Assembly (NCBI GenBank): GCA_029242325.1
Contig: JAQWUD010000019.1
Span: forward strand, 1-64,000
From: Luminiphilus sp.
GTDB taxonomy: Bacteria; Pseudomonadota; Gammaproteobacteria; Pseudomonadales; Halieaceae
Direction of reading: 5' to 3'
DNA length: 64,000 nucleotides
Shown: in pieces, positions 19,465-26,145 of the stretch
Numbering within the stretch: position 1 is the stretch's first letter
Layout of the letters: every line of letters starts with the position of its first letter
Notes under the pieces: generated by a model
Databases searched by the model: none
What the model was told of the DNA's origin: nothing
Seen by the model: the letters and a program-made list of their open reading frames with translations, nothing else
Position numbers and translations under genes: made by a program

Positions 19465-20313
19465 CTAAAGGTTGAAACGCTCTCGTAGAAATCGAGCCAC
19501 GCCGTCCTCATCGTGATGGCCAATCACCTTGTCCGCTGCGTCTAAAATCACAGGGTCGGCGTTGGCGGGTGCATAGCATTCGCTTGCGGACTCAAACATG
19601 CTGAGGTCATTGTCGCCGTCACCAAAGGCGATGACGTGATCAATGTCGAGCTCAGAGCGGAGGCGGTTAATGGCGTTGCCCTTGCTCCCGAGGCTGTGAT
19701 GAATGTCTACCCAGTGCAGCGCGGGTTCTGTGGCCGCATGCCCCATTTCCCGCTCATGAATCGCCACCCCGGAGTAGGCGATAAGGTGCGGCTCCTCTGC
19801 AATGCTGGCGCGGACGTGGGTGACCGCCTCGGCGCTACCCAGTGCGAAGACGTTGATCACGCTAATTTCGTCTGGCATGGCCGTCAGGGGCTCGAGCGGC
19901 AGGTGTCGCTCGGCCTCAAAAAGATCTGCCAATTTGTGCTCGCTCTGCGTTTTAAGCGGTCCGTGATACAACACGTGCCGCTGCCCTGGCCGCAGTGAAA
20001 AGACAAACGGCGTCAGGTCGTTGAGGGTAAAGGCCGCCAACACGTGCCAGACCTCTTCCTTCGCCAGCAAGTGGTGGTGACTGTAACGCTCCTCCTCGGG
20101 TGACCAAATAATGGCGCCATTTTTCAAAATCAGGGGCAGGGTAAAGAAATGATCCTTCAGGGGCGTCACGGCCGCCTGCAATGTACGACCCGTAGCTACC
20201 GTGTAGGGAATCGCCCGGGCGCGCATGAGCGACAGCGTCTCGGCGGTGTACGGCGAAATTTTCGAACTCTTGTCTAGGAGCGTGCCATCGAGGTCGAACA
20301 CAACAAGCGTCAT
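19465..20313 (-). CDS. Cof-type HAD hydrolase
   Basis: This 282-residue protein is a haloacid-dehalogenase phosphatase with a type-II cap (Cof/YidA group). Motif I is VFDLDGTLLDKSSKIS, motif II sits near YTVATGRTL, motif III holds the lysine in LGSKGNAI and motif IV is IAFGDGDNDLSMFE. Members dephosphorylate sugar phosphates, flavin or pyridoxal phosphates, often with broad specificity. It has no obvious operon partner: 51 bp separate its start from the end of the DUF3501 gene on the same strand, so it may receive read-through from that operon. Confidence 0.9.
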   Translation of the reverse strand: MTLVVFDLDGTLLDKSSKISPYTAETLSLMRARAIPYTVATGRTLQAAVTPLKDHFFTLPLILKNGAIIWSPEEERYSHHHLLAKEEVWHVLAAFTLNDLTPFVFSLRPGQRHVLYHGPLKTQSEHKLADLFEAERHLPLEPLTAMPDEISVINVFALGSAEAVTHVRASIAEEPHLIAYSGVAIHEREMGHAATEPALHWVDIHHSLGSKGNAINRLRSELDIDHVIAFGDGDNDLSMFESASECYAPANADPVILDAADKVIGHHDEDGVARFLRERFNL

Positions 20314-20364
20314 ATTTGTGCTCCAGGCAGATAGCGACTCAATGGCACGGGCCTCTCGTCCAAC

Positions 20365-20961
20365 TTAGTGTTCAGTCAGTACCAGGTCAGCCACCAGCGA
20401 ATCGCGGATGGCTGCAGGCACTTCGTAACGATCTATCCGGTAGCTGGGGTGGTCAATACCGGCGAAGAGCGCGGCACCGTCTTTGAGCGCATTGATCTGT
20501 TCTGGTGACACCTCGAAGCGCAAAAAGTGCACTGAAGCGGTTTTGTCGGCAGTCGTTCGGTCAAGATCCTCGTCCGCTATTGGTACGATACGGTCAAGGT
20601 CGCCCACCTGCATCCAGATCTGATCTTCAATGCCGATCATTTCTCCTAGTCTGACCGCTCTCTGGGCCGGGTCGGGGATCTCGATCATAAAGGTGACCTT
20701 CCAGTTGTGACCGTCTGGGATGAGGGGGTTGTAAGCGCTTAATTCCTCTTCGATGCCTTCTGCCTCAAAAACTCGCTCGATGCGCAGCATTTCTTGAATC
20801 TGGTAGCGAACGGTCGTGGCGTCTTCAAAATAGAGCCGGGCATGCTCCCCGAGGGCGAGCTGGCGGTTCTTTTTATGAGCCATCACTTCGGTGCGGAAGT
20901 CCGCGCGCTTGGTCGCATATTCTTCAAGGCTCCACAAATCGTCACGTGTCAGGTGTGTCAT
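20365..20961 (-). CDS. DUF3501 family protein
   Basis: This 198-residue soluble protein has no signal peptide or membrane helix and no recognisable catalytic motif. It matches what I know of DUF3501: the N-terminal LEEYATKRADFRTEVMAHKK, a charged helix QEMLRIERVFEAEGIEEEL and the late SVHFLRFEVSPEQI. The family is poorly understood and regularly follows a rubrerythrin and a GlpC-like Fe-S protein, as it does here (34 bp after the Fe-S gene). A GAGGAA ribosome site precedes the ATG. A role in an electron-transfer or assembly step for the peroxide-reducing rubrerythrin is inference from context only. Confidence 0.8.
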   Translation of the reverse strand: MTHLTRDDLWSLEEYATKRADFRTEVMAHKKNRQLALGEHARLYFEDATTVRYQIQEMLRIERVFEAEGIEEELSAYNPLIPDGHNWKVTFMIEIPDPAQRAVRLGEMIGIEDQIWMQVGDLDRIVPIADEDLDRTTADKTASVHFLRFEVSPEQINALKDGAALFAGIDHPSYRIDRYEVPAAIRDSLVADLVLTEH

Positions 20962-20995
20962 ATTCGATTCCTCGGATTGGTTACAGTTTGAATGA

Positions 20996-22318
20996 TTAGA
21001 GGCCGTAAGCTTCTCGGAGCAATGTCATGGGGTGCTCTGCCTTGGCGACCTTTTCCGACAGATGGGCAATATGCTCACCCGCCATGGGGCAGTCACTGAT
21101 GAATCTGTCTGGCGCTTGCTCGTCAACCTTGCGAACTGTCGGCCGCGCGATCTTTACCGATTTATCCCGCGTCTCCTTTTTGACTGCATAAGTCCCATCA
21201 TGGCCAGAGCAACGCTCGTAGGCGGTCACATCACTTTCGGAGACCAGATTCAATATGTCGCGCGTTTTCAGCCCGATATTTTGCACTCGCTGGTGGCAAG
21301 CAACCTGATACGCCACGTCCCCCAGTGCCGCTTTGAAGTCAGTGTTGAGTGCATTGCCTTTGTGCCGCGCCCAGAGGTATTCGAAAGGATCATAGAAAGC
21401 GCTCTGCACCTTCAGCACATCAGGGTCGTCGGGGTACATCAGTGGCAGCTCCTGTTTGTACATGAGCACGCAGGAGGGGATCGGTGCCGTGAGGTCATAG
21501 CCCTCATCAACCAGTTTAGCGAGCACGGGAATGTTGGCTTGCTTGAGCGCGTCGACACTGTCGAGGTCACCGAGCTCCAGTTTTGGCATGCCACAACATT
21601 GTTCCTTCGGCACAATGTCGATATGAATCTCGTTATGCTGAAAAACCCTGACGAAATCTTCTCCCACCTCAGGGCTGTTGTAGTTGCCATAGCAGGTGGC
21701 GTAGAGGGCGACTTTCCCCGTGGTTGTGCCCACAGGATGTGGCTCGATCGTCTGCAGCAAAGGCACCACTCGTTTGCGCAGTGTCTTGCTGTGTAGTGTT
21801 GGCAGTGGTGCCTCGTGATGAATATCAAGCCCTGCAGAGAGCGCCTTGCGAAAGACTCCCGTTTTGTTGAGCGCATTCACGGTAATGTCCACCAACGGTA
21901 TTGAGGTGATGGAGAGTAAGCGGTCTGTGCTGGTCAGCGTCCGATCGCGCAAGGGTGCGCCTTGCTCTTTGAAGCGCTGGGCTTTTGCTCTCAGCATCAG
22001 ATGTGGGAAGTCCACATTGAATTCGTGGGGTGGCACATAGGGGCACTTGGTGAGGTAGCAGAGATCGCAGAGGTAGCACTGCTCTGCGACTTTGTTGTAG
22101 TCCGCTTTGTCGACGCCGTCCACCTCCAGGGTGTCGCATTCATCGATGAGATCGAACAGGGTGGGGAAAGCGTCGCACAAACTTACGCAGCGTCGACAGC
22201 CATGGCAGACATCGAACACCCGTTCCAGCTCGTCGTTAAGCGCGCCTTTGTTCCAGAAATCATCACTTTGCCAGTCCAAAGGGTGGCGAGTGGGTGCGTC
22301 AATGCTACCTTCTCTCAT
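20996..22318 (-). CDS. GlpC/heterodisulfide reductase-like Fe-S protein linked to rubrerythrin
   Basis: This 440-residue protein has two N-terminal ferredoxin-type clusters, C38/C41/C44/C48 and C81/C84/C87/C92, followed by two CCG-like domains as in GlpC. The first CCG domain is intact in its key part (ATCYGNYNSPEVG, then EQCCGMPKLELGD). The second is degenerate: GlpC-type CCG reads CSG here (YERCSGHDGTY) and the closing DCxxC reads DCPMAG. It has no membrane segment, so it is probably a cytoplasmic electron carrier that passes electrons to the rubrerythrin encoded upstream. It sits 152 bp after the rubrerythrin stop, beyond an attenuating hairpin. Family membership is firm; the electron-donor role is inferred. 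Confidence 0.85.
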   Translation of the reverse strand: MREGSIDAPTRHPLDWQSDDFWNKGALNDELERVFDVCHGCRRCVSLCDAFPTLFDLIDECDTLEVDGVDKADYNKVAEQCYLCDLCYLTKCPYVPPHEFNVDFPHLMLRAKAQRFKEQGAPLRDRTLTSTDRLLSITSIPLVDITVNALNKTGVFRKALSAGLDIHHEAPLPTLHSKTLRKRVVPLLQTIEPHPVGTTTGKVALYATCYGNYNSPEVGEDFVRVFQHNEIHIDIVPKEQCCGMPKLELGDLDSVDALKQANIPVLAKLVDEGYDLTAPIPSCVLMYKQELPLMYPDDPDVLKVQSAFYDPFEYLWARHKGNALNTDFKAALGDVAYQVACHQRVQNIGLKTRDILNLVSESDVTAYERCSGHDGTYAVKKETRDKSVKIARPTVRKVDEQAPDRFISDCPMAGEHIAHLSEKVAKAEHPMTLLREAYGL

Positions 22319-22411
22319 GGCGTTTGCATCTCATCGTTAACCTTCGGTTTGAGCGCCATCCGCTAATGTTAATTCCCCGCGAGCTTTATTTGCTTCACGT
22401 GATCGGAGGGC

Positions 22412-22444
22412 GAAAAAAACAAGGGGAGCCACTTAGCTCCCCTT
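22412..22444 (-). terminator. Intrinsic terminator after the rubrerythrin gene
   Basis: Read on the minus strand, a nine-base-pair stem (AAGGGGAGC with GCTCCCCTT, six-base loop) is followed after one G by seven T. It lies 27 bp beyond the rubrerythrin stop and 94 bp before the start of the Fe-S gene. It should end most transcripts after rubrerythrin and let a fraction read into the two downstream genes. Confidence 0.85.
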
Positions 22445-22470
22445 GGTGTTGGCGTGAGCCTGGGTTGCAA

Positions 22471-22890
22471 TCAGTCGTCGAGGTTGTCCAGCGCCTTCTG
22501 AAAACGGTTGGCGTGACTGCGCTCTGCCTTGGCCAGCGTCTCGAACCAGTCAGCGATTTCGTCAAAACTTTCATCGCGAGCGGTCTTGGCCATGCCGGGA
22601 TACATGTCGGTGTATTCGTGTGTTTCACCGGCGATCGAAGCTTCGAGGTTCTTCTTGGTATCGCCCATGGGCAAACCGGTAGCGGGGTCGCCAACCTCTT
22701 CCAGGTACTCAAGGTGCCCGTGAGCGTGACCCGTCTCGCCCTCGGCTGTCGATCTGAACACGGCAGCGACGTCATTGTAGCCTTCTACGTCGGCTTTTGA
22801 GGCGAAATACAGGTACCGTCGATTGGCTTGCGACTCTCCTGCAAATGCATCTTTTAGGTTCTGCTCGGTAGCACTATCTTTTAATCCCAT
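22471..22890 (-). CDS. Rubrerythrin (di-iron peroxidase domain only)
   Basis: This 139-residue protein is a four-helix ferritin-like domain with the rubrerythrin metal ligands: E19 in [10 protein letters not shown], the ExxH pair E52/H55, E89 in AGETHEY and the second ExxH pair E123/H126. It lacks the C-terminal rubredoxin domain, so it needs a separate electron donor, plausibly the Fe-S protein encoded next. Rubrerythrins reduce hydrogen peroxide to water in the cytoplasm. The ATG at 22890 follows AAGGAG; the longer frame upstream is non-coding. It is divergent from oxyR across 229 bp, which fits peroxide control, although I could not identify an OxyR site with confidence. Confidence 0.92.
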
Positions 22891-23119
22891 TTCTTGCTCC
22901 TTAGATTGCTGTCGTCGATCCTGTGCCCAAACAAACTGTATGAGCTTCGCGGTCATCTTAATATACCGATCTCGTGCAAGTTTGGCTTACTGGAAATTTA
23001 AAAAAAATTGATCGAAAAATCCGATTAAAATGTAGGGGCGTAGTGAGCCAAGCATATGCAGCAGCTCACGCTGCCAATGTGTCGCCCGCTTCCTCGCTTT
23101 TCGGAAAAAGAGATCTCGT

Positions 23120-24019
23120 ATGCGCTTGCCCACCCTCAAACAGCTTCGCTATCTGTGCGCCCTGGCTGATCACCAGCACTTTGGTCAGGCTGCTGCGGGG
23201 TGTCATGTCAGCCAAAGTACGTTGAGCGCCGGTATTTTGGAGCTGGAGGAGTCGCTCGGCGTCAGTCTGGTCGAGCGCAACAACCGCCGAGTGTTTCTAA
23301 CCTCGTTGGGCGAGGAGGTCATTGTGCGTGCACGGGACTTGCTGGTCGATGTCGAGGATATGGTGTCACTATGCGCGGGCGCGGGGGTGCCATTTCAAGG
23401 GCGGATGAGAATGGGGGTTATTCCCACCGTCGCACCGTATCTTTTGCCGGGTCTGCTCAGTCAAATCCGGGAGCGGCATCCCGCGTTGAAGCTGTTTATC
23501 AGGGAAGATCTCAGCCAGTCACTTGTCGACAGCCTGTTGGCTGGGGAGTTAGACGTGCTGTTGCTGGCGCTTCCATTCCCGGCTGAACAGGTGCAGACGA
23601 TGTCGCTGTTCGAGGACGATTTCTTGCTGGCGTGCCCTGCAGAGCACCCACTCGCATCACGCAGCACTGTGCGCACTGCAGACCTTAGAGGGGAGTCCCT
23701 TCTTTTGTTGGAGGAGGGGCACTGCTTGCGGGATCATGCGCTCGAAGCGTGCAAGTTGAGGGACTCACAGATAACCGTTCCCTATCAGGCGACCAGTCTC
23801 GCGACTATTGTGCAGATGGTGGCAAACGGCATTGGCATCACGTTGCTGCCGGGTATGGCAACCGCTGCCGGCATTGCGGACAACACGGCGCTATGCGTTC
23901 GGCCTTTTGATCAAACCAATGTGTCCAGGCAGATTGGTTTGATGTGGCGTAAAAAAACACCAAGGCACGTTGAGTTTCGTCAGCTGGGCGAGCTAATTGC
24001 GGGGCTTGTAAAGCCCTGA
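23120..24019 (+). CDS. oxyR: LysR-type hydrogen-peroxide sensor OxyR
   Basis: This 299-residue LysR-type regulator has an N-terminal helix-turn-helix (HFGQAAAGCHVSQSTLSAGI) and a C-terminal sensing domain. C202 and C211 in EEGHCLRDHALEAC are separated by eight residues exactly like the Cys199-Cys208 redox pair of E. coli OxyR. TSLATIVQMVANGIGITLLP is also an OxyR signature. Oxidation of the pair by peroxide forms a disulfide and switches the protein to an activator of catalase, peroxidase and related genes. It is divergent from the rubrerythrin operon, its likely target, and ends 17 bp before the opposing ygiQ-like gene. Confidence 0.93.
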   Translation: MRLPTLKQLRYLCALADHQHFGQAAAGCHVSQSTLSAGILELEESLGVSLVERNNRRVFLTSLGEEVIVRARDLLVDVEDMVSLCAGAGVPFQGRMRMGVIPTVAPYLLPGLLSQIRERHPALKLFIREDLSQSLVDSLLAGELDVLLLALPFPAEQVQTMSLFEDDFLLACPAEHPLASRSTVRTADLRGESLLLLEEGHCLRDHALEACKLRDSQITVPYQATSLATIVQMVANGIGITLLPGMATAAGIADNTALCVRPFDQTNVSRQIGLMWRKKTPRHVEFRQLGELIAGLVKP

Positions 24020-24036
24020 TTCGCGGGGCGGTGTGA

Positions 24037-26145
24037 TTAGCGTCGGCGCCCCTTGCCCCGCTGTTCCCCCGTATGCTGTGTTCGAAAGGTTCCGCCCTCG
24101 GGTTTAACCACCCGGTGGCGTTTGGGAGGCTGTCGGGCAGGAATGAGGTGTTTTGATCCGTTACCGATCAGATCACGCCGCCCCAATTTCTTCAAGGCCT
24201 TACGTAGCAGGGGCCAATTATCGGGGTCGTGATAGCGTAAAAAGGCTTTGTGTAAGCGTCGCTGGCTCACTCTTTTGACGGCGCCGATTTTCTCGCTATT
24301 GCGTTTCACGCGTTGTAACGGGTTGAATCCGGTGTGATACATGGCCGTCGCCGTCGCCATCGGTGACGGGTAGAAAGTTTGCACTTGATCTGCCCGAAAG
24401 CGACGCTGCTTGAGCCACAGCGCGAGCGACACCATATCTTCGTCGGTCGTGCCCGGGTGGGCGGCAATGAAATAGGGAATCAGGTACTGTTTTTTACCGG
24501 CTTCTTTCGAGAAGCGCTCAAACATTTCCGCGAAGCGATCATAGCTCCCGATTCCCGGTTTCATCATTTTCGATAATGGCCCGGATTCAGTGTGTTCAGG
24601 TGCGATTTTTAAATAGCCGCCGACATGGTGGGTCACCAGTTCTCGCACATACTCGGGGCTCTCGACAGCAAGATCGTATCGTAGCCCAGAAGCGATCAGC
24701 ACTTTTTTAACGCCCTCTGTTTCTCTCGCTCTGCGGTAAAGTGCGATTAAGGGATCGTGGTCTGTATTCAGATTCTTGCAGATGCCTGGATACACGCAGC
24801 TGAGTTTTCTGCACGCGGCTTCAGTTGCCTTATCTTTGCAGGCCAGTCGCCACATGTTCGCTGTGGGACCTCCAAGATCTGAGATGACGCCGGTAAACGC
24901 GGGACTTGTGTCTCGGATCTGCTCTACCTCCCGGATGATGGAGTCCTCGGAGCGGCTCTGAATGATGCGCCCTTCATGCTCTGTAATAGAGCAAAAAGTG
25001 CAGCCGCCAAAGCAACCCCGCATGATATTGACCGAGTGTTGAATCATTTCCATCGCGGGCACCGCGGCGCCACCATAGGACGGGTGCGGCAGTCGTTGGT
25101 AGGGCAGTTCAAATACCCAGTCCAGCTCATCCGTTTCCAGCGGTATGGGTGGCGGGTTAAGCCAGACCTCACGGTCGCCGTGAGCCTGAATGAGCGGAAG
25201 TGCGTTGTAGGGGTTGGTTTCCTTGTGAAAGACCCGGGAAGCATGGGCATACAAAACGGGGTCTTCCATCACTGCCTCGGCCGAGGGTAATCGGATGGCA
25301 TGGCTTTCTTTTCGGCTGCTTGCCATGACGCGCACCGGCTCAGCAGCGTCTTTCGTGGTTTTATCTTCGCTACACTGCTCGGGTTCCATGCCCTGATAGG
25401 GGTTGGGATGGGCCTCAACGGCTCCGGGTTCGTCTATCGACGTCGAATCAACCAGAACCCGATCTGCTGGCGGTGCGGCGGTAATCAATGCGGTTCCGCG
25501 AATATCCTTGAGCGTATCGATCGCCGCGCCATTTGCCAGGCGATGCGCCACCTCCACAATCGCTCTTTCCGCATTACCGAACAGGAGGAGATCACTCCTG
25601 CTGTCGAGTAAAATAGAGCGCTTTACGCGATCGCTCCAGTAGTCATAGTGAGCGATTCGGCGCAGGCTGGCTTCAATCCCACCAATGACGATTGGCGTGT
25701 CCCTCCATGCTTCTCGCAGCCGCTGACTGTAGACTGTAACGGCATGGTCAGGGCGTTTTCCCGCTACATTGCCGGGAGTGTAAGCGTCATCATTCCGCCG
25801 TTTTCGATCCGCCGTGTAGTGATTGATCATCGAATCCATGTTGCCGGCAGTGACCCCGAAAAAAAGATTGGGTCGCCCCAACGCTTTAAAAGCATCGGTA
25901 GATCGCCAGTCTGGCTGGGCGATCATGCCTACCCGGAATCCTTGCGCTTCAAGCACTCGACCAATTACCGCCATGCCAAAGCTCGGGTGGTCGACGTAGC
26001 CGTCGCCTGAAACAATAATAATGTCGCAACTGTCCCAGCCGAGGCTCTGCATTTCGTCACGAGACATCGGTAGCCAGGGTGCTGGTCCAAGGCACTCGGC
26101 CCAGTATTTCCGATAATCAAATAGAGCGCTTGGCTTATCCTGCAT
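24037..26145 (-). CDS. YgiQ-family radical SAM protein
   Basis: This 702-residue protein belongs to the YgiQ family. The radical-SAM cysteines are in GCFGGCTFC (C-x3-C-x2-C, near residue 375), preceded by an N-terminal cobalamin-binding-like region ([20 protein letters not shown]) and followed by [20 protein letters not shown] and the C-terminal [19 protein letters not shown]. The tail after about residue 660 is rich in Arg and Lys. The function of the family is unknown. Its ATG lies inside the end of the potassium-channel gene, with an 11-bp overlap, so the two are translationally coupled. It converges on oxyR. Confidence 0.92.

Follow-up and report, generated by a model that had tools for sequence, protein, structure and literature searches.

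A rubrerythrin-RFO-DUF3501 operon of Luminiphilus with a predicted OxyR operator-promoter and a recurrent hairpin after the rubrerythrin gene

Aerobic-type rubrerythrins (Rbr) may be encoded next to a DUF3501 protein and RFO, an iron-sulfur (Fe-S) protein resembling GlpC and HdrD. According to the parts consulted of the survey by Cardenas, Quatrini and Holmes from 2016, the three genes occur together in 185 of 4461 genomes, DUF3501 is almost never found without rubrerythrin, and the module is known from bacteria and archaea (PMC5114695). The trio is also present in Andalucia, with a predicted mitochondrial location, and homologues exist in other protists (PMC7050145). In Sideroxydans lithotrophicus ES-1, oxyR was reported in 2020 to cluster with a DUF3501-RBR operon (PMC7852563). 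Ferriperoxin of Hydrogenobacter thermophilus, a one-domain rubrerythrin, is a peroxidase whose mutant fails to grow aerobically; in vitro, it was reduced by NADPH and ferredoxin-NADP reductase (FNR) without RFO (PMC3317640). Here, we analyze a locus of this type from Luminiphilus sp. (Halieaceae), located in a DNA stretch of 64,000 nucleotides (contig JAQWUD010000019.1 of assembly GCA_029242325.1, positions 1 to 64,000; hereafter the window). The questions addressed, namely how rubrerythrin is re-reduced in aerobes and which role DUF3501 plays, concern a module spanning bacteria, archaea, and some protists.

The window locus is a member of the published module, as the same three genes, of the same kinds, are co-localized and co-occur (PMC5114695). 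Our additions are an operator, a recurrent hairpin, and a peroxiredoxin-linked DUF3501 paralogue, for which no earlier mention was found in the literature searched, as far as the sources were accessible. Specifically, OxyR sites and a hairpin downstream of the rubrerythrin gene (rbr) go unmentioned in the consulted parts of the 2016 account, and the pairing of a DUF3501 paralogue with a peroxiredoxin in Luminiphilus sets this genus apart from the module described there. In Sideroxydans, OxyR accompanies the triad as it does in the window, four genes clustering with OxyR in that case, and the accessible text describes neither an operator nor a hairpin (PMC7852563). Ferriperoxin, a one-domain rubrerythrin, was assigned by Cardenas et al. 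to the same group as the type found in the window (PMC5114695). It differs in that NADPH-FNR was shown to be its electron source (PMC3317640), and the Hydrogenobacter RFO gene lies apart from the other two (PMC5114695). Published expression data or mutants of RFO or DUF3501 were not found in this literature search, which drew on partial texts.

In the window, rbr, RFO, and DUF3501 form one operon on the (-) strand, and oxyR is divergent from rbr; the intergenic gaps measure 152 nucleotides (nt) between rbr and RFO, 34 nt between RFO and DUF3501, and 229 nt between rbr and oxyR. We read the locus as an aerobic-type rbr-RFO-DUF3501 module under predicted OxyR control, in which a hairpin would give an excess of rbr RNA, and estimate the probability of this reading at about 0.72. 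Gene content, co-occurrence, the OxyR box, its spacing, and the hairpin come from the present analysis; peroxidase activity and the aerobic requirement come from a relative only. According to this model, oxidized OxyR would bind the palindrome ATCG-N7-CGAT, centered near -65, and activate the rbr promoter, probably acting on its own divergent gene too. By analogy, the first gene product, Rbr, would be a di-iron peroxidase converting H2O2 to water, and the hairpin after rbr would keep rbr RNA above RFO-DUF3501 RNA, either by partial termination or by protection of the 3' end. RFO, apparently a soluble protein of the HdrD type, would probably re-reduce the di-iron site of Rbr or feed its reductase, and DUF3501 would probably be a non-redox partner binding or tuning the peroxidase. 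Experiments could start from two of these features, the promoter, in which the OxyR box is defined, and the hairpin, which should determine how much enzyme is made relative to its partners.

The rbr gene (22471..22890, (-) strand) encodes 139 amino acids (aa) with a ferritin-like domain only (PF02915, E value 9e-30), PF02915 and the related PF00210 being the only Pfam matches. Since the protein contains no cysteine, it lacks a rubredoxin domain, as an earlier first-pass annotation of this DNA had claimed. Residues 3 to 139 align with the rubrerythrin of B. pseudomallei (4di0; E value 2.8e-74), and residues 3 to 137 align with sulerythrin (1j30; E value 1.4e-49). The start codon is the ATG at 22890, preceded by AAGGAG within the ribosome-binding region AAGGAGCAAGAA (22891..22902, (-) strand). 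A longer reading frame reaching 22956 was rejected as over-extended, as this ATG with its AAGGAG and the alignment from residue 3 favor the shorter form.

Co-occurrence was assessed in 274 genomes of the class, with cut-offs of E ≤ 1e-40 for Rbr and E ≤ 1e-80 for RFO. DUF3501 was detected in 119 genomes, Rbr in 118, and RFO in 119; all three were present in 114 and none in 151. The complete set was thereby found in 114 of the 123 genomes with any of the genes, in line with the earlier claim that the triad recurs in bacteria, which understated a fact in print since 2016 (PMC5114695). That annotation would have been contradicted by a DUF3501 occurring mostly on its own; in our survey, 114 of the 119 DUF3501-bearing genomes also hold both partners. 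The single-gene exceptions comprise one genome with DUF3501 only (G164, in which stops break DUF3501), one with Rbr only, and two with RFO only. Two genes were found as Rbr plus DUF3501 in two genomes (G064, and G079 at a contig end), as Rbr plus RFO in one, and as DUF3501 plus RFO in two, the RFO match being shortened in both of the latter. At the locus level, 65 named loci have enough sequence upstream to be judged; rbr, RFO, and DUF3501 are adjacent in 61 of them, whereas rbr is missing from that place in three and RFO in one. RFO mostly sits between the other two. Because loci are related and some are duplicated (L032 and L169 are apparently one contig, as are L034 and L196, and L186 and L187 are near-identical), these and the following counts are not independent events. 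The window itself was left out of the adjacency counts for named and Halieaceae loci, of the census of neighbors at 150 loci, and of the strict hairpin scan. The data support the operon as a coherent module.

A few loci depart from the usual arrangement. For five with RFO-DUF3501 and no adjoining rbr (L074, L082, L094, L216, and L218), a replacement enzyme was considered and dismissed; they are split operons, since rbr is present elsewhere in each genome. One of them, from Thiorhodococcus mannitoliphagus, carries a glutathione peroxidase-like gene just upstream of RFO-DUF3501 (L094:5790-6425), a single case in a genome with rbr elsewhere. At L151:7063-7671, in a genome that is 99% complete (G421), DUF3501 stands alone, and neither rbr nor RFO was found. 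In G061 and G202, the RFO match and the DUF3501 match each lie in an open frame of 607 to 669 aa, which suggests fused genes like the Nitrosomonas fusions reported by Cardenas et al.

The oxyR gene (23120..24019, (+) strand) encodes 299 aa with the redox pair C202/C211, and the exact spacing ascribed to this pair in the first-pass annotation agrees with that of C199/C208 in E. coli OxyR. It is the one OxyR with the Cys pair that was found in the genome. An alignment of regulator-rbr intergenic regions revealed the OxyR-type palindrome ATCG-N7-CGAT, located at 23011..23025 of the window, with TA-a-T downstream; here, the predicted -10 element of rbr is TATATT (22960..22965, (-) strand), and 60 nt separate it from the box start. 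The box was then counted within 230 nt of rbr in 38 divergent regions including the window, of which 35 have an OxyR with the Cys pair, one has a LysR protein without it (L042), and two have an incomplete OxyR (at a contig end in L168 and split in L180). It is exact in 30 of the 38 regions and within one mismatch in 36, whereas shuffled sequences give 0.03 exact matches, and it is exact in none of 86 rbr loci without an adjacent OxyR. Five loci with a co-directional OxyR yielded no exact box and a single box with one mismatch. A TAnnnT element lies 59 to 61 nt from the box start in 34 of the 38 regions, and 39 of the 46 such elements found at 52 to 70 nt, katG included, fall within these three positions. 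The four regions lacking this spacing are L042 and L192 (no TAnnnT found), L186 (no box), and L170, in which an upstream box was scored instead; a second exact box stands at the usual place in L170, and its spacing was left out. From the spacing of 59 to 61 nt, the center of the box would be near -65, the usual place for the recognition site of LysR-type regulators.

The same box is found beyond the rbr loci. The window genome has KatG, and PF00199 catalase was not found in it; an exact box precedes its katG (L249:2797-2811), with TACAGT at 61 nt and an equally scoring TATCGT at 66 nt, L249 holding two exact matches. In the oxyS-oxyR region of E. coli, ATCGTTCATTGCTAT and ATCGCCATGAACTAT, 22 nt apart, each differ from the pattern by one mismatch; the E. 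coli katG and dsbG-ahpC regions have one one-mismatch site each, possibly by chance. Of the 39 Halieaceae loci with enough flanking sequence, 28 have OxyR divergent from rbr, and two more hold fragments of it. In the neighbor census, OxyR/LysR was the commonest flanking family (42 of 150 loci, 16 of these outside the Halieaceae set), followed by putative parE (24) and putative parC (21). The conserved operator-promoter supports the predicted control of rbr by OxyR. It also bears on the idea that iron or O2, and not peroxide, is what the module chiefly acts on, with Rbr as a ferritin-like oxidase. Rbr does belong to the ferritin-like superfamily and matches PF00210, and a protein judged Fur-like by inspection is encoded near 5 of the 150 loci, but the promoter shares its OxyR box with katG and ferriperoxin is a peroxidase (PMC3317640), so that we consider an iron or O2 function improbable. 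As a separate observation, the window genome encodes a second OxyR-like LysR protein (L240:1471-2439), in which the first redox Cys is missing (NEQHLYHKQVSDLC) and whose gene is divergent from one for a transporter labeled SulP-like by eye.

The gap between rbr and RFO contains a strong hairpin (22420..22445, (-) strand) with 11 pairs, 7 of them GC, and a loop of 4, directly followed by a run of seven U (22413..22419, (-) strand), i.e., the GC-rich stem and U run of an intrinsic terminator. Throughout the terminator scan, 8 terminator-like sites were found against 6.2 expected, which is not above chance; the stem of the site after rbr is the longest among them. For the gap as a whole, the folding z score is -2.90, a stability reached by 2 of 200 shuffles. 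Across loci, z falls below -2 for the first 80 nt after rbr in 82 of 122 cases, made up of 26 of 39 Halieaceae loci, 55 of 82 further loci, and the window; control segments do so in 1 of 127 cases within rbr and in 12 of 127 ahead of it. With the strict scan for a hairpin plus U run, 25 of 128 rbr-RFO gaps were positive where 0.7 were expected, 16 of them among the 39 gaps of the Halieaceae set. None of 141 RFO-DUF3501 gaps was positive, which is a weak control given their shortness (median, 24 nt). The conservation of the hairpin was judged from folding energies and from reading the gap sequences; as the stems differ between genera in the Halieaceae gaps read, the structure seems to be kept while the letters change. 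A second promoter for RFO-DUF3501 was not found in the rbr-RFO gap: the scan of 19500-25000 gave one promoter-like site, located elsewhere, where 2.5 are expected by chance, and is weak evidence either way.

Because a stable hairpin recurs after rbr, an excess of Rbr over its partners is probably a conserved design, brought about by termination or by mRNA stabilization. The hairpin might act as an mRNA 3'-end stabilizer or a processing signal instead of a terminator or attenuator, the excess of Rbr then resulting from RNA decay. The disparity between stable hairpins (82 of 122 gaps) and strict hairpins with a U run (25 of 128) would fit such a function, as would the stems without any U run in some of the gaps read; on the other side, seven U follow right after the 11-pair stem in the window, and several relatives are alike. 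We regard a stabilizer as a credible possibility that the evidence does not favor. The terminator-like hairpin singled out in the first-pass annotation is thereby real and recurrent, and the larger amount of rubrerythrin predicted from it fits; it may come about by termination, as assumed there, or by mRNA stabilization.

The RFO gene (20996..22318, (-) strand) encodes 440 aa with a PF02754 match (E value, 5e-13); judged by PF02754 and its likeness to GlpC, the protein qualifies as a COG0247-like CCG Fe-S oxidoreductase. It contains two ferredoxin sites with four Cys each (C38-48, and C81-92 with the pattern C-x2-C-x2-C-x4-C), CCG site 1 (C209, C241, C242, and C283), and a reduced CCG site 2 (C341, C370, and C410). 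Each of the 72 sequences compared has all 15 Cys of these sites. In CCG site 2, C-S-G is present in 71 of 72 sequences and C-x-x-A in all 72, and H342 and H373 are invariant; residues 341 to 413, with three Cys and two His, may possibly form a different metal site. The predicted model (predicted local distance difference test score, 90.6) matches EtfD (9ojn) with a Z of 21.4 over 361 residues at a root mean square deviation (rmsd) of 3.7, LutA (9a6l, an integrative model) with a Z of 23.5 over 227 residues at an rmsd of 2.3, and HdrB with a Z of about 19. The fold matches mostly span residues 192 to 440, the N-terminal part being covered mainly by 9ojn and 3kwl. Hydropathy analysis gave no membrane helix (maximum KD19, 1.05).

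The GlpC-like Fe-S protein named in the first-pass annotation is indeed encoded together with rbr and DUF3501, and it is 27% identical to E. coli GlpC over 372 columns, both proteins having two ferredoxin sites and CCG domains. It differs from GlpC in an N terminus that is about 30 residues longer, in C-x4-C instead of C-x3-C in the second ferredoxin site, and in CSG and C-x-x-A where CCG site 2 of GlpC has CCG and CETC. RFO also stays below the GlpC cut-offs (208.7 of 278 bits and 124.7 of 279.9 bits), and glpA and glpB are absent beside it, the neighbors being rbr, DUF3501, and oxyR. With EtfD of Mycobacterium smegmatis (9ojn) it shares the fold, whereas EtfD, at 742 residues, has the larger chain and hydropathy gives no membrane helix for RFO. 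Based on the ligand pattern, the fold matches, and the lack of a membrane helix, RFO probably works like an electron carrier of the HdrD/GlpC kind, yet it is not GlpC, and its invariant ligands that differ from GlpC are a concrete handle for further work.

Alternatively, Rbr could receive its electrons from ferredoxin-NADP reductase, with RFO catalyzing another redox step, e.g., a quinone- or thiol-linked one. This would agree with the reduction of ferriperoxin by NADPH and FNR (PMC3317640), with the presence of Rbr and DUF3501 and no detected RFO in G064 and G586, with the resemblance of RFO to EtfD, HdrB, and LutA, which serve other partners, and with the absence of two of five Cys from CCG site 2. 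What speaks for a function of RFO together with Rbr is that only 3 of the 119 DUF3501-bearing genomes of the class lack RFO, among which one has a disrupted DUF3501 and another has the locus at the end of a contig, and that RFO usually lies between rbr and DUF3501. We lean away from a separate role for RFO, while taking it as possible, and prefer RFO as a donor to Rbr or its reductase.

Several observations count against the OxyR-controlled module with RFO as donor. OxyR scores 234 bits, below the NCBIfam OxyR equivalog cut-off of 329, although OxyR is still the best-scoring family and the model may be drawn tightly. The box is not rare: the 64-kb window contains 5 exact copies where 1.73 are expected, a number reached by 4 of 100 shuffles, and boxes with one mismatch occur in 17 of the 86 rbr loci without an adjacent OxyR. 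Among the 65 named loci with room, the arrangement is infrequent, with only 4 divergent and 5 co-directional OxyR genes; the adjacency of OxyR is lineage-bound and therefore not part of the module in general. Furthermore, only 25 of the 128 rbr-RFO gaps pass the strict hairpin scan, ferriperoxin works with FNR and NADPH in the absence of RFO (PMC3317640), and Rbr and DUF3501 lack a detected RFO in G079 (at a contig end) as well as in G064 and G586. Weighing these points, we consider the observation reported in the first-pass annotation confirmed and its interpretation partly supported.

The DUF3501 protein (20365..20961, (-) strand; 198 aa) matches PF12007 over its full length (E value, 2e-70) and the solved structure 3fjv (E value, 3.4e-54; Z, 26). 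No fold relative beyond 3fjv was found below an E value of 0.001 by Foldseek; a gamma-adaptin ear (Z, 6.9; 112 residues; rmsd, 4.1) was within the background and was rejected. H29, H145, and H171 and several Glu/Asp residues are invariant in 80 of 80 sequences. In contrast to RFO, DUF3501 has no conserved Cys (at most 9 of 80 sequences per column) and thus probably takes no part in Fe-S or thiol chemistry.

A diverged DUF3501 (PF12007, E values of 5e-9 to 5e-20) was found in 9 of 57 genomes of the genus, that of the window included. It retains F-E, T, Q-x-Q-E, and V-H of the canonical family, and a stop lies inside the match in three of the nine copies (G338, G343, and G368). The fetched stretches of these loci (L142 to L150, e.g., L148:6213-7835) contain neither rbr nor RFO. 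A canonical DUF3501 match accompanies the diverged one in seven of the nine genomes; in G367 (88% complete) and G338 (79% complete), no canonical DUF3501, rbr, or RFO was found. In eight of the nine loci, the diverged gene is divergent from a 2-Cys peroxiredoxin gene, the ninth (L150) being at a contig end, and in six of the nine the exact 16-mer GATAATCATTCTCATT, which we take to be a Fur box, lies between the two genes (it is missing from L146, L149, and L150). Outside the genus, no weak second DUF3501 match was found among 140 genomes of the family. A search of 341 genomes of the order gave 8 matches, of which 7 overlap a canonical DUF3501 and the eighth is in G681; this search missed all nine carriers.

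The pairing provides a clue, the strongest new one here although confined to one genus, that DUF3501 may be tied to peroxide reduction beyond rubrerythrin. The link might also have arisen as a chance neighborhood fixed in a single genus, an explanation that we find quite plausible, if short of even odds. It would account for the restriction to one genus, where the eight loci are not independent (L142 and L143 have identical scores), for the lack of weak second matches in other genera among the 140 family genomes, and for the stops in G338, G343, and G368. It sits less well with the close divergent arrangement of the two genes in 8 of 9 loci, with the exact 16-base Fur-box-like site in six, and with a neighbor that is a peroxidase, the very function expected of Rbr. 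A bolder idea, which we deem rather unlikely, is that DUF3501 is a general family of peroxidase partners, whose Luminiphilus copies would serve an iron-rich, OxyR-driven rubrerythrin on the one hand and an iron-free peroxiredoxin with a Fur box on the other. If this were true, iron scarcity would switch the defense to a metal-free enzyme while the kind of partner is kept. The Rbr-free pair of DUF3501 and peroxiredoxin makes the role of DUF3501 approachable without di-iron chemistry.

Two neighboring genes were recorded in addition. In six of the peroxiredoxin loci (e.g., L148:7854-8450 and L144:8344-8844), the peroxiredoxin gene is followed by one for a small Cys-rich protein (CFCDKHWSAMCGCG...), which had no Pfam match in the two copies scanned. 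In the window, a gene for a HAD-IIB hydrolase (19465-20313, (-) strand) starts 51 nt past DUF3501. Of 20 fetched loci of the genus, 19 have a homologue no more than 5 kb downstream, as does L032, whereas the rest of the 150 loci have none. This confinement to loci of the genus places the hydrolase probably outside the rbr-RFO-DUF3501 module.

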